NCBI GenBank assembly: GCA_027488845.1
Contig: JAIYBC010000065.1
Coordinates: 1 to 64,000, forward strand
From: Verrucomicrobiales bacterium
GTDB lineage: Bacteria > Verrucomicrobiota > Verrucomicrobiia > Limisphaerales > UBA9464
DNA length: 64,000 bases
Reading direction: 5' to 3'
Made by a program: the position numbers and the translations under genes. Position 1 is the stretch's first letter, and the number at the start of each line of letters is the position of its first letter. The notes beneath the pieces are model-generated. The model worked only from the letters and a program-made list of their open reading frames with translations. It was not told the origin of the DNA and ran no database searches. This document shows, piece after piece, positions 10,961 to 14,337 of this stretch.

Positions 10961-12484
10961 TCAGGCCGCCTTGGCTGCGGGAAGTCGGACGGTGAACTTG
11001 GAACCGACGCCGGGTGCGCTTTCGACCGAGATCCGGCCCTGATGGGCCTCCACGATGGCCCGGCAGATCGCCAGGCCGAGTCCGCTGTGTCCCTCGGCGC
11101 GACGGCGTGCGCGGTCGGCGCGGAAGAAGCGGTCGAAGACGTGGGGAAGATCCTCGGCGGCGATGCCGATGCCGGAGTCCTGCACGACGAGCAGGCAGCC
11201 GTCCTCGGAGGCCGCGGTGCGGACCTTCACGATGCCGCCGGACGGCGTGTACTGGATGGCGTTGGCGACCAGGTTGGTGACCACCTGCCCGAGCCGTTCG
11301 GCGTCGCCATACACGCGGGCGGCAACGGTGTGCACCTCGAGTTGGAGCCCTTTCCCGACGGCGAGGGGCCGAAGGGCCTCGGCCAGCGCGCCGGCGACCT
11401 CACCCACGTCCACCGGAAGTGTGGAAGCGAGGCCATCGCCTTCGTCCAGGCGGGCGAGTTGCAGGAGGGAATCGGTGAGCCGGCGCATCTGCTGGGCGGT
11501 GGCGAGGGTGGCGTGGAGGGTTTCGCGGTATTCCTCCGGCGAACGGTCGCGCGAAAGGGCGGACTGCGCCTCGACCAGCAGCACCGCGAGCGGGGTGCGC
11601 AGCTCGTGCGCGGCGTCGTCGGTGAACCGGCGTTGCCGGACGAAGGCGGCCTCGAGCCGGTCGAACGTCGCATTGAGCACGCCCGCGAGCCGGCCCACCT
11701 CGCTGTCGGGTTCGGTGGTGGCGATGCGTTCGGAAAGGGCCCCGCCGGAGATGCGTTCGGCGGCGGCACGGATCTCCTCGACCGGACGCAGCGCACGGGT
11801 GGAGAGCCACCAGCCTCCTCCGAGTCCGAGCGCGAGGACCGCGGCTCCGACACCGGCGAGGTTCCAACCCAGTCTCCGCTGGGCCCGCTTCAGCGGTTGA
11901 AGCGACCGTCCGGCCAACACGCAGTCGCCGAGCTCGGTGAACTGGTAGCACTCGAGCAGGCCGTCCCGGTCGCGGAAGTGCATCTGCGTGCTCCGTCCCG
12001 GCCGACTCGGGATCGGGAGGTCGGGAGGCCCCGCTTCGGTCCGCCGGAGCAGCACCCCTTCCCGGGACCAGACGGCGGCATGTCCCCCGGGCGGACCGCC
12101 GGCCATGGCCTCCTCGAACGCGCCTTCGGGGATCCGCGCCTTCGGGGGTCCGGAACGGGACATCCCGGTTCCATCGGGCGGAGGGCCCATCGGACGCGGA
12201 CGGTCCCCATCTCCACGAACAACCGGACCGGGCATGCGGCGGCCCTCGCGGGCCTCTTCCCCGGCCGGTCCACCCATGGATCGGAGTCCGCCGGGAGACG
12301 GGCCGGCGCCGCCGCGGACCGCGAGGTTCAAGGCGGCCACGCGACGTTCCAGGTCCTCCTCCAGCTGTCCGCGCTGCGTCACGCCCTGGAGCTGATGGAC
12401 CATCAGGCCGAACCCGGCGAGCACGCCGACCAGCAGGAATCCAAGCCAGAGCTGCAACCGCCAGCGGATGGAGCGGATCACCAT
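10961..12484 (-). CDS. Sensor histidine kinase, QseC/CusS type
   Basis: 507 residues. TM1 at about 12-30 and TM2 at about 205-226 enclose a periplasmic part that contains an unusual Gly/Pro/Arg-rich stretch (about 57-120). A HAMP domain (about 227-280), a HisKA domain with H293 in DDAAHELRTPLAV, and a HATPase domain (N box NLVANAIQYT, G1 DSGIGI, G2 GHSGLGLAI) follow. The gene starts 4 bp after the stop of the OmpR-type regulator gene upstream (12489-13142), so the two form an operon read leftward. Domain order matches QseC/PmrB/CusS kinases, which sense cations or small molecules. The 191 bp between this gene and the VOC gene hold nothing I recognise. Confidence 0.95.
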   Translation of the reverse strand: MVIRSIRWRLQLWLGFLLVGVLAGFGLMVHQLQGVTQRGQLEEDLERRVAALNLAVRGGAGPSPGGLRSMGGPAGEEAREGRRMPGPVVRGDGDRPRPMGPPPDGTGMSRSGPPKARIPEGAFEEAMAGGPPGGHAAVWSREGVLLRRTEAGPPDLPIPSRPGRSTQMHFRDRDGLLECYQFTELGDCVLAGRSLQPLKRAQRRLGWNLAGVGAAVLALGLGGGWWLSTRALRPVEEIRAAAERISGGALSERIATTEPDSEVGRLAGVLNATFDRLEAAFVRQRRFTDDAAHELRTPLAVLLVEAQSALSRDRSPEEYRETLHATLATAQQMRRLTDSLLQLARLDEGDGLASTLPVDVGEVAGALAEALRPLAVGKGLQLEVHTVAARVYGDAERLGQVVTNLVANAIQYTPSGGIVKVRTAASEDGCLLVVQDSGIGIAAEDLPHVFDRFFRADRARRRAEGHSGLGLAICRAIVEAHQGRISVESAPGVGSKFTVRLPAAKAA

Positions 12485-12488
12485 GGCC

Positions 12489-13142
12489 TCAACGTTCGAT
12501 GCAGTAGCCCAGGCCCCGGCGGGTCACGATGAGGTCGTGGCCGAGCTTCTTGCGGATGTTGAACACATGGACGTCGAGCAGGTTGGAGAGGCTGTCGTCG
12601 TTCTCGTCGAAGAGGTGTTCGAACAGCTCGGTGCGGGTGACGACCTCGCGACGGTGCAGGGCGAGGTACTCGAGGATGGAGTATTCGCGGGCGGTCAGCA
12701 CCACCGGGACTCCGGCACGTGTGACGGAACGGGCCCGGGTGTCGACGCGGACGTCGCCCAGCTCGATGTCGGGACGCGCCGTCCCCGCGGCACGCCGGAT
12801 CAGCGCCCGCACCCGGGCGAGCAGCTCGTCGAGGTCGAACGGCTTGCCGAGGTAGTCGTCCGCCCCGCCGTCCAGCCCACGCACGCGGTCCGACGCCGCG
12901 TCGAGCGCGGTCAACATGAGGACCGGCGTGGCCTTGGTCTTCCGCAGCTCGCGCAAGACCGTCCACCCGTCCCGTCCCGGGAGCATCACGTCGAGCAGGA
13001 CCACGTTGTAGTCGTTCTGTTCCGCCTTGTGCAGCCCGTCGTCCCCGGCCGCGGCGACATCCACCGCATAGCCCTCCTCGCGCAACGCCTTGGCCAACGT
13101 CGTGCGCAGGCGGTCTTCGTCCTCGATCAACAGGATCCTCAT
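12489..13142 (-). CDS. OmpR-family response regulator, QseB/PmrA/CusR-like
   Basis: 217 residues. The receiver (1-118) has the acidic E7-D8 pocket, phospho-acceptor D51 in NVVLLDVMLPGRDG and the conserved lysine in LGKPFDLDELLARV. The C-terminal winged helix (about 125-217) carries the OmpR pattern LTAREYSILEYLALHRREVVTR and ends GYCIER. It is upstream of and nearly contiguous with its kinase. A CTTAA-N6-CTTAA box, the binding pattern known for PmrA and QseB proteins, lies 85 bp upstream of its start, in the region shared with a divergent gene. Autoregulation is therefore likely. Confidence 0.95.
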   Translation of the reverse strand: MRILLIEDEDRLRTTLAKALREEGYAVDVAAAGDDGLHKAEQNDYNVVLLDVMLPGRDGWTVLRELRKTKATPVLMLTALDAASDRVRGLDGGADDYLGKPFDLDELLARVRALIRRAAGTARPDIELGDVRVDTRARSVTRAGVPVVLTAREYSILEYLALHRREVVTRTELFEHLFDENDDSLSNLLDVHVFNIRKKLGHDLIVTRRGLGYCIER

Positions 13143-13226
13143 GGGAGTCGGCCCCCGGTTTCGCGGGATGCGGAAGGAGCCTCCCGCAACGTGGATGAAG
13201 ATGGGATGAAGCGGGACATGGGCCGG

Positions 13227-13242
13227 CTTAACGGAGGCTTAA
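13227..13242 (-). promoter_or_regulatory. CTTAA-N6-CTTAA box, candidate PmrA/QseB-type binding site
   Basis: CTTAA at 13227-13231 and 13238-13242 are direct repeats 11 bp apart; the longer form GGCTTAA is also exact in both. This matches the half-site pattern established for PmrA/BasR and QseB. It is in the 154-bp gap between the regulator gene (start 13142, leftward) and the dioxygenase gene (start 13297, rightward), so it could act on either. The motif reads CTTAA on the plus strand. Confidence 0.55.
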
Positions 13243-13296
13243 ACGCCCTCGGAGTAGCGTGACGCCGACCAACGGATCATCAACACCGACCACACC

Positions 13297-14337
13297 ATGA
13301 AGACCAGTCCCAAACCTTCGGAACCCCAGTCCTTCAACATCCCCTGCGACCGCCGCCGCTTCTTCCGGAGCATGGCGATCGCCTCGGCCGGCTTCACGCT
13401 GCCCGGGTTCCTCGCCGAGGCCGTCGCCGCGACGCCGATCGTCACCCAGGGTCCGTACTATCCGCTCGCCGACGACATCCCCTTGGACAAGGACAACGAC
13501 CTCGTCCAGCTGGACGACCGGCTCACCGTGGCCAACGGGGTCGTCACCCACATCACCGGACGCGTCCTCGACGCGAACGGGAATCCGGTGAGGAACGCGC
13601 TGGTCGAGCTTTGGCACGCCGACCGGGAGGGCGACTACCTGTACTCGTCGGGGAGCGGGAGGAACGCGGCGTGCGACGCGAACTTCGCCGGGTTCGGGCA
13701 GTTCCTGACCGGTTCGTCGGGACGCTTCCGCTTCCGCACGATCAAGGCCGGCCTCTACGTCGGCCGCACCCGCCACTACCACTGGGGCGTCACCCTTCCG
13801 GGACGCACGACCCGCTCGACGTCGCAGACGGGCTGGAACGAGGTGGCCTACGGGCTGACCGGCGCCGCCTGGGGCACCCAGAACTCCAACGACAACGTCT
13901 TCTCCTCGGTCCCCGCGGCGCAGCGGGCGTCCCTGCTGCTCGACTTCACCGCGGTCCCCGGCACGACGACCGGAGAGGTCCAGGCGGAGTGGGACTTCGT
14001 CAGCGGCTTCACCCCGACCGAGCCGACCTATCCGGGTGGAGGCAGGCTGACGGTGGCCGGCACGCCGGTGGCGGGGCCGGTCGGTAGCGACCCGCGGTAC
14101 CGGATCACGGTGCCGGCCTACGCGGGCTACACCTACGAGGTCTACGGCAACCCGACCTTGGCCGACCTCGGATGGCGGGCGTTGCCGTTCTCCTTGAGTG
14201 CGACCGGGTCGATCGACCGCCACAAGCACACGGCGACGGCGGAAGGTTCCCTGAGCCTCTTCGTCGGGGACGCGGCCGAGCGTGGCTTCTACCAGGTCAG
14301 CTTCCGCGTGCCCGGGGCGAACACCGGCACGCCGTGA
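13297..14337 (+). CDS. Tat-exported intradiol ring-cleavage dioxygenase
   Basis: 346 residues. Residues 1-45 are a twin-arginine signal (RRRFFRSMAIASAGFTLPG). The domain that follows has all four ferric-iron ligands expected for the catechol/protocatechuate dioxygenase family: Y114 in the DREGDYLY segment, Y154 in IKAGLYVGR, and H160 and H162 in RTRHYHWGV. These enzymes open the ring of catechols between the hydroxyls. Export suggests action on catecholic material outside the cytoplasm. A C-terminal part of about 100 residues (from residue 240) is extra and looks like a beta-sandwich sorting or binding module. It is divergent from the QseB-like pair and may be its target. Confidence 0.85.
   Translation: MKTSPKPSEPQSFNIPCDRRRFFRSMAIASAGFTLPGFLAEAVAATPIVTQGPYYPLADDIPLDKDNDLVQLDDRLTVANGVVTHITGRVLDANGNPVRNALVELWHADREGDYLYSSGSGRNAACDANFAGFGQFLTGSSGRFRFRTIKAGLYVGRTRHYHWGVTLPGRTTRSTSQTGWNEVAYGLTGAAWGTQNSNDNVFSSVPAAQRASLLLDFTAVPGTTTGEVQAEWDFVSGFTPTEPTYPGGGRLTVAGTPVAGPVGSDPRYRITVPAYAGYTYEVYGNPTLADLGWRALPFSLSATGSIDRHKHTATAEGSLSLFVGDAAERGFYQVSFRVPGANTGTP

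Follow-up and report, generated by a model that had tools for sequence, protein, structure and literature searches.

Two PmrA-type boxes form a probable bidirectional promoter between an OmpR-family regulator gene and an exported dioxygenase gene in a Verrucomicrobiales bacterium

The 154-bp intergenic region (13143-13296) that separates a response regulator gene from a divergently oriented dioxygenase gene is very probably a bidirectional promoter that is run by the adjacent regulator via two boxes, and that would belong to a regulon for metal or oxidative functions outside the cytoplasm. The locus lies in a stretch of 64,000 nucleotides of Verrucomicrobiales DNA, hereafter called the window (Table 1). 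Based on the DNA features described below, the presence of a PmrA/QseB-type operator at this location is well supported.

Table 1. Features of the regulator-dioxygenase locus, with positions numbered along the window.
Feature	Position	Strand	Remarks
Sensor histidine kinase of the two-component system	10961..12484	-	HAMP, HisKA and HATPase_c above Pfam cut-offs
OmpR-family response regulator with PmrA-like recognition helix SNLLDVHVFNIRKKLG	12489..13142	-	PF00072 and PF00486 above cut-offs
-10-like hexamer GAGGCT of the regulator promoter, 11 bp past the regulator-facing box	13178..13183	-	GACACT in G005, with A2 and T6 kept
Regulator-facing box CTTCAT-CCCAT-CTTCAT	13195..13211	-	0 mismatches to YTTMAK-N5-YTTMAK
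Dioxygenase-facing box CTTAAC-GGAGG-CTTAAA	13227..13243	+	Pattern match; unchanged in G005
-10-like hexamer TAGCGT, 11 bp past the dioxygenase-facing box	13255..13260	+	Unchanged in G005
Intradiol ring-cleavage dioxygenase with twin-arginine export signal	13297..14337	+	PF00775, 64.7 bits (cut-off 27.3)

We propose that the regulator, presumably in phosphorylated form, occupies the two back-to-back boxes as two dimers, with a head-to-tail pair on each box as is the case for PmrA. A weak -10 element would follow each box after 11 bp, and the box would cover the place of a -35 element, such that each promoter would consist of a -10 element without a -35 element. Because a box stands in place of the -35 element at this distance from the -10 element, the bound regulator is predicted to recruit RNA polymerase, and we infer activation rather than repression. 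One direction would serve the regulator's own operon (autoregulation), and the other a divergent exported protein, here the Tat-exported intradiol dioxygenase, which may have been recruited into an existing regulon in the lineage of the window.

The regulator consists of a receiver domain and a winged-helix DNA-binding domain (PF00072, 100.3 bits against a cut-off of 30.2; PF00486, 72.3 bits against 26.2), and both domains assign it to the OmpR/PhoB response regulators. Its gene is followed by the kinase gene. The best-scoring family models of this system are those of the heavy-metal subfamilies, although both scores fall below their cut-offs (218.9 bits against 279.2 for the CopR/CusR/SilR regulator model TIGR01387; 270 bits against 292.55 for the kinase model TIGR01386). 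A sequence-only reading of the window had placed the regulator in the PmrA/QseB family. This resemblance holds for the recognition helix but does not extend to the families proper, given scores of 202 bits against a cut-off of 330 for the PmrA (BasR) equivalog NF007928 and 160.3 bits against 345 for the QseB equivalog NF007663.

The dioxygenase carries the twin-arginine motif DRRRFF (identified by eye), in agreement with the Tat export that had been assigned to it. The two tyrosines and two histidines expected as iron ligands can be recognized by eye within GDY, GLY and RHYH, although structure alignment did not place all of them. These residues and the PF00775 match establish the protein as an intradiol dioxygenase, and the nearest solved structures are protocatechuate 3,4-dioxygenase beta chains.

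The feature originally reported for the intergenic region is a pair of GGCTTAA repeats (13225-13231 and 13236-13242) with a period of 11 bp, which creates the arrangement CTTAA-N6-CTTAA at 13227-13242. This arrangement is indeed present, and is the sole match on either strand of the 64-kb window when up to one mismatch is allowed, compared to a mean of 0.02 matches for 100 dinucleotide shuffles (two of which contain a match). The sequence-only reading did not include the regulator-facing box, which has the same geometry, or the two -10-like hexamers, in which the two most conserved positions of a -10 element are occupied by A and T. Both boxes are direct repeats of the form YTTMAK-N5-YTTMAK with an 11-bp period.

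The 6-bp half-sites and 5-bp gap bear out the earlier comparison with the PmrA/BasR pattern as described in PMC3973317 and PMC10927774. The two window sites and most of the orthologous promoters have the geometry and TTMA cores of the PmrA-type sequence YTTAAK-N5-YTTAAK, with the limits that the half-sites also allow CTTCAT and that the dioxygenase-facing site is one to two mismatches off. Specifically, the latter differs from YTTAAK-N5-YTTAAK at one position when read on the minus strand (TTTAAG-CCTCC-GTTAAG) and at two on the plus strand (CTTAAC-GGAGG-CTTAAA); its TTAA cores are perfect, while the sixth base of the half-sites is degenerate and accounts for both plus-strand mismatches. We also considered whether the plus-strand box and a minus-strand TTMAKCC array form four half-sites of one operator. 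This arrangement was rejected because its trailing base does not fit and because two boxes in back-to-back orientation are seen in the orthologs.

A protein search of 59 related genomes, including the genome of the window, found the regulator family in 43 of them at E <= 1e-40, and 20 further regulator loci (62-98 % identity) were taken with their flanks. Seventeen non-redundant orthologous promoters were kept after leaving out the near-duplicates L125, L135, L136 and L141. We define a composite site as a box with no more than one mismatch and, at +11, a -10 element with A and T at positions 2 and 6. Such sites face the regulator in 12 of the 17 promoters, the divergent gene in 10, and both in 7; the window's own dioxygenase-facing box, with its two mismatches, is not counted among the 10. 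Absence of the box from orthologous intergenic regions had been named beforehand as a result that would overturn its proposed role, and because the box is kept at these loci, the proposal withstands this test. Regulator-facing composite sites are lacking at 3 of 21 loci (L136, L138 and L140), and the latter two end at contig edges.

The corresponding means for 300 dinucleotide shuffles of the 17 promoters are 0.02 (regulator), 0.02 (divergent gene) and 0 (both), with a maximum of 1, a comparison that is flattering because the half-site alphabet was widened (M at position 4) after these promoters had been inspected. Profiles of gap and offset are less exposed to this choice. When gaps of 0 to 10 were scanned, a gap of 5 yielded boxes in 13 promoters on the regulator strand and 11 on the divergent strand, compared to 0-5 at the ten other gaps. 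Likewise, among -10 offsets from 0 to 30, 22 of 26 boxes have the element at +11, and every other offset accounts for 0-3.

The closest comparison is with G005, where, in what is a small sample, the intergenic region differs by 8 substitutions in 154 bp, none of which falls in the four half-sites or in TAGCGT. Within the same small sample, 4 of the 11 spacer bases before TAGCGT differ with the spacing unaltered, and two changes convert GAGGCT to GACACT. The place and orientation of the dioxygenase-facing box match those of the divergent boxes of the orthologs. The window's own genome (G000) also encodes a paralogous system with 65 % identity (contig C36, 240263-240333; L142, L246 and L247). 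There, two identical back-to-back boxes ATTCATCCTGGCTTCAG lie between the regulator gene and a divergent YHYH-PBP gene, both with a -10 element at +11.

Searches that ignored the -10 element provide a separate view of its spacing. The pattern CTTMATNNNNNCTTMAGG gave 19 matches in 17 genomes versus 7 for the reversed control, and CTTMAYNNNNNSTTAAKG gave 21 matches in 5 genomes versus 8. These pattern-only boxes occupy 28 distinct places, 23 of which have a -10 element at +11. Seven of the 28 are promoters already in the ortholog set, and the spacing is found at 17 of the other 21. A stricter pattern, CTTCAYNNNNNCTTAAGG, was searched in 188 genomes of the class, comprising 33 from the order of the window and 155 others. 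Within the order, there were 17 matches versus 5 for the control, 16 of them with the -10 element at +11; in the remainder of the class, there were 11 matches versus 35 (counted by eye), and the spacing was present in 3 of the 11. These counts and the -10 spacing indicate that the module is a feature of the order and not of the class as a whole. Twenty previously unexamined genomes of the order contributed 14 matches, 13 with the -10 element at +11.

In the window's own genome, YTTMAK-N5-YTTMAK alone is not enriched (7 matches versus 8 for the reversed control), and a looser pattern gives 25 matches versus 18, making whole-genome counts of boxes uninformative. Because the bare pattern is not enriched in this genome, function is argued from where the boxes lie, from the presence of a second box, and from conservation and the distance to the -10 elements. 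Five of the 25 looser matches have a -10 element at +11, and four of these five are accounted for by the two known divergent loci together with a third regulator gene. Among the 7 matches, those with a meaningful location are at the window, at this third regulator gene (C10), and at a YHYH gene that lies on the same contig at a distance of 74 kb; the box of this YHYH gene has no -10 element at +11.

Genes following the 21 CTTMAYNNNNNSTTAAKG matches encode YHYH proteins (5), regulators (3), EF-hand proteins (2), di-haem peroxidases (2), multicopper oxidases (2), receiver-only proteins (2, by eye), an MbnP-peroxidase fusion (1), a Planctomycete-type cytochrome (1), a dioxygenase (1) and an exported-looking protein (1), and one match has no sensible target. 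The multicopper oxidases are from G055 and G051, the MbnP domain is fused to a di-haem peroxidase in G037, and further boxed di-haem peroxidases occur in G055 and G050. Translations downstream of the order's CTTCAYNNNNNCTTAAGG matches, judged by eye, comprise regulators (6), YHYH proteins (4), EF-hand proteins (3), peroxidases (2), a receiver-only protein (1) and one case without a target. PmrA (BasR) is paired with the iron-sensing kinase PmrB and controls genes of lipopolysaccharide modification; no lipopolysaccharide gene was found among the boxed genes examined here, which cover part of the regulon. On contig C99 of G051 (L126), several Tat-type dioxygenase genes and a di-haem peroxidase gene are clustered with the regulator gene, a further OmpR-type regulator gene, and boxed genes for a multicopper oxidase and a YHYH protein.

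The recognition helix of the regulator resembles that of PmrA, with partial agreement at the DNA-contacting positions. In a docking model of Klebsiella PmrA, Lys153, Thr187, Asn188, His193 and His195 contact bases, and Asn196 and Glu199 are further likely specificity residues, according to PMC3973317. The window regulator carries Arg, Ser, Asn, His, Phe, Asn and Lys at these seven positions; three are identical (Asn188, His193 and Asn196), two are conservative replacements (of Lys153 and Thr187), and two are different. His193 is present in all 18 of the regulators L001-L018, and both this residue and the composite site are absent for all 10 of the less related OmpR-type regulators L021-L030 from the same genomes. 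The exceptions are L019 and L020, relatives with 52-53 % identity that carry the box with Thr193. Similarly, the C10 regulator of the window's own genome (54 % identical) has the same box and Thr at position 193, and thus more than one regulator may use the box.

Outside the order, a perfect same-strand box precedes 7 of 79 regulator genes (38-54 % identity) compared to 0.04 for shuffles. Six of these are alphaproteobacterial and one is labelled Acidimicrobiales, and none has a -10 element at +11, which suggests that the box type is old and that the promoter spacing is the order's own. The alphaproteobacterial examples (L094, L096, L099, L104, L113 and L121) have a perfect CTTAAG-N5-CTTAAG located 53-66 bp before the regulator start.

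The divergent gene at orthologous regulator loci differs between genomes, and mostly encodes an exported protein. YHYH proteins, alone or with a PBP domain, occupy this position at L127, L130, L137, L142 and L144. Planctomycete-type cytochromes are found at L128 (by Pfam) and L132, L133 and L135 (by resemblance), and EF-hand proteins at L131 (by Pfam) and L129, L136 and L141 (by resemblance). Single examples are a sulfatase-modifying/Ig protein (L126), a beta-lactamase-like protein (L134) and a DUF2961 protein (L139). No clear divergent target is seen at L138, L140 and L143, and an intradiol dioxygenase is found only in the window and G005.

Several of these promoters may produce leaderless transcripts. 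The first ATG begins at +6 in 7 of 15 divergent composite sites, which would place the transcription start at, or close to, the start codon. An ATG exactly 6 nt past the -10 hexamer is seen for the divergent genes of L127, L130 and L142, and for the boxed genes of L261, L264, L270, L273 and L287. At L129, L131, L136 and L141, the ATG at +6 opens a frame of 31-45 codons between the divergent box and the EF-hand gene. This short frame is similar in L129, L136 and L141, which are from one genus, and possibly encodes a leader peptide.

Among 29 judged YHYH loci (L189 was left out), a box is present at 6 of 13 in genomes whose regulator has at least 60 % identity, counting a partial box in G023, and at 1 of 16 in genomes without such a regulator. 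YHYH genes of several regulator-bearing genomes, G019, G026 and G032 among them, have no box. The boxed YHYH protein from the window's own genome yielded a predicted structure with a mean pLDDT of 42.8 (12-sequence alignment), and no solved structural relative was found. We also found no description of the box or of YHYH function in the open-licence literature, which is weak evidence of absence.

The boxed YHYH, EF-hand, di-haem peroxidase, MbnP and multicopper oxidase genes of related genomes make an extracytoplasmic metal or oxidative regulon the best reading. Such targets suggest that the metal may be copper, which the multicopper oxidases and MbnP make the most plausible single candidate. 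We tentatively extend this reading, as something that might be true but that we do not expect, to a PmrA-like regulon that is widespread in one order and serves extracytoplasmic copper or oxidative chemistry through multicopper oxidase, MbnP with di-haem peroxidase, YHYH, EF-hand and exported dioxygenase proteins. It would use the fixed module CTTMAT-N5-CTTAAG-N11-nAnnnT, often in leaderless form, and a swappable bidirectional cassette beside the regulator.

A more specific possibility, which we regard as rather doubtful, is a copper-responsive system, in which copper, or oxidation driven by it, is detected by the kinase outside the cytoplasm. Copper would then be oxidized and bound by products of the regulon (multicopper oxidase, YHYH, and MbnP together with its di-haem partner), and the intradiol dioxygenase would remove copper-reducing catechols. 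The boxed oxidase and MbnP genes argue for this model, as do the heavy-metal affinities of the regulator and kinase, even though both are under cut-off. According to PMC9426971, the reduction of Cu2+ by catechols yields Cu+, which is more toxic and is countered by the oxidase CueO, and a link between copper and the dioxygenase is conceivable for this reason; MbnP/MbnH are discussed in a copper context, without direct data, in PMC3621798. However, the boxed genes examined include no copper exporter or chaperone, the sensor domains in an alignment of 17 kinases exhibit no conserved Met/His/Cys cluster by eye and no clear ligand site, and EF-hand proteins are no argument for copper. Moreover, the boxed genes seen in the window's own genome are limited to regulators, two YHYH proteins and the dioxygenase.

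Two narrower alternatives concern the dioxygenase itself. It is unlikely that only the regulator-facing box functions, next to a constitutive dioxygenase gene whose own box has decayed or is a TTAA repeat that arose by chance. The two mismatches on the dioxygenase strand would fit this explanation, as would the four closest dioxygenases (60-70 % identity; G025, G029, G036 and G051), which have no box within 350 bp. However, the dioxygenase-facing box and its -10 element, exactly at +11, are unchanged in G005 despite the altered spacer (in that small sample), and orthologous divergent boxes share its location and orientation. Upstream of the G025 dioxygenase (L154), several copies of a different repeat, GTTTAC, are present in place of the box.

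Slightly less probable still is a catechol-sensing two-component system that drives an exported ring-cleavage enzyme. A dioxygenase gene does lie beside the box in G000 and G005, another is boxed in trans in G042, and dioxygenase genes flank the regulator's cluster on both sides in G051. However, G042 is the only case among 20 dioxygenase loci examined in other genomes (20 of 46 rows), and the four closest relatives without a box include two from genomes that have the regulator (G025 and G051) in addition to two from genomes without a regulator of at least 60 % identity (G029 and G036). We rejected a catechol-specific regulon as the main reading because most dioxygenases examined lack the box, and orthologous regulator genes mostly stand opposite genes for other exported proteins. 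Thus, of the earlier proposal that the box ties this system to catechol or extracytoplasmic metal metabolism, the catechol part finds little agreement with these data, whereas the metal part fits the boxed multicopper oxidase, MbnP and di-haem peroxidase genes. Finally, a chance repeat without function, as might be imagined from the lack of enrichment in the window's own genome, is highly improbable given the conservation and spacing statistics for the 17 promoters and the fresh genomes.

Under the bidirectional-promoter model that we favor, a lone repeat becomes part of a testable regulon in bacteria with few known operators, and the YHYH family, so far unstudied, acquires a regulatory setting alongside copper and haem proteins. 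The type of switch is known, and its gene set seems to be undescribed.

A similar promoter architecture is that of the Pho box, where the OmpR-family activator PhoB acts on direct repeats with an 11-bp period that end approximately 10-11 bp before the -10 element and replace the -35 element. The repeat period, the distance to the -10 element and the replacement of the -35 element are shared with the promoters proposed herein, whereas the half-site sequence and the regulon are different. CopR/CusR represents the best family score of the regulator, and the kinase is likewise closest to heavy-metal proteins, but the score is under the cut-off and both the recognition helix and the box are of the PmrA type. 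For QseB, the sequence-only reading had named a box with N6 spacing. A CTTAA-type direct repeat is common to both systems, but the targets differ and the family score is far from the QseB cut-off; a site in Glaesserella is CTTAA-N4-CTTAG (PMC10714720).

PmrA/BasR resembles the present system in its box and recognition helix. Its box has YTTAAK half-sites in Salmonella and the form TTTAAG-N5-TTTAAG in Acinetobacter (PMC10927774), and the Klebsiella half-sites CTTAAT/CCTAAG are 6 bp long with a 5-bp gap (PMC3973317). The direct repeat of 6-bp half-sites with a 5-bp gap and three recognition-helix residues (Asn188, His193 and Asn196) are the same. In contrast, His195 is replaced by Phe and Glu199 by Lys, C is allowed at half-site position 4 (CTTCAT), the family score is under the cut-off, and the targets seen here are exported YHYH, EF-hand, haem and copper proteins. 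PmrA-type DNA recognition thus appears here with different target genes, far from its known lipopolysaccharide regulon.
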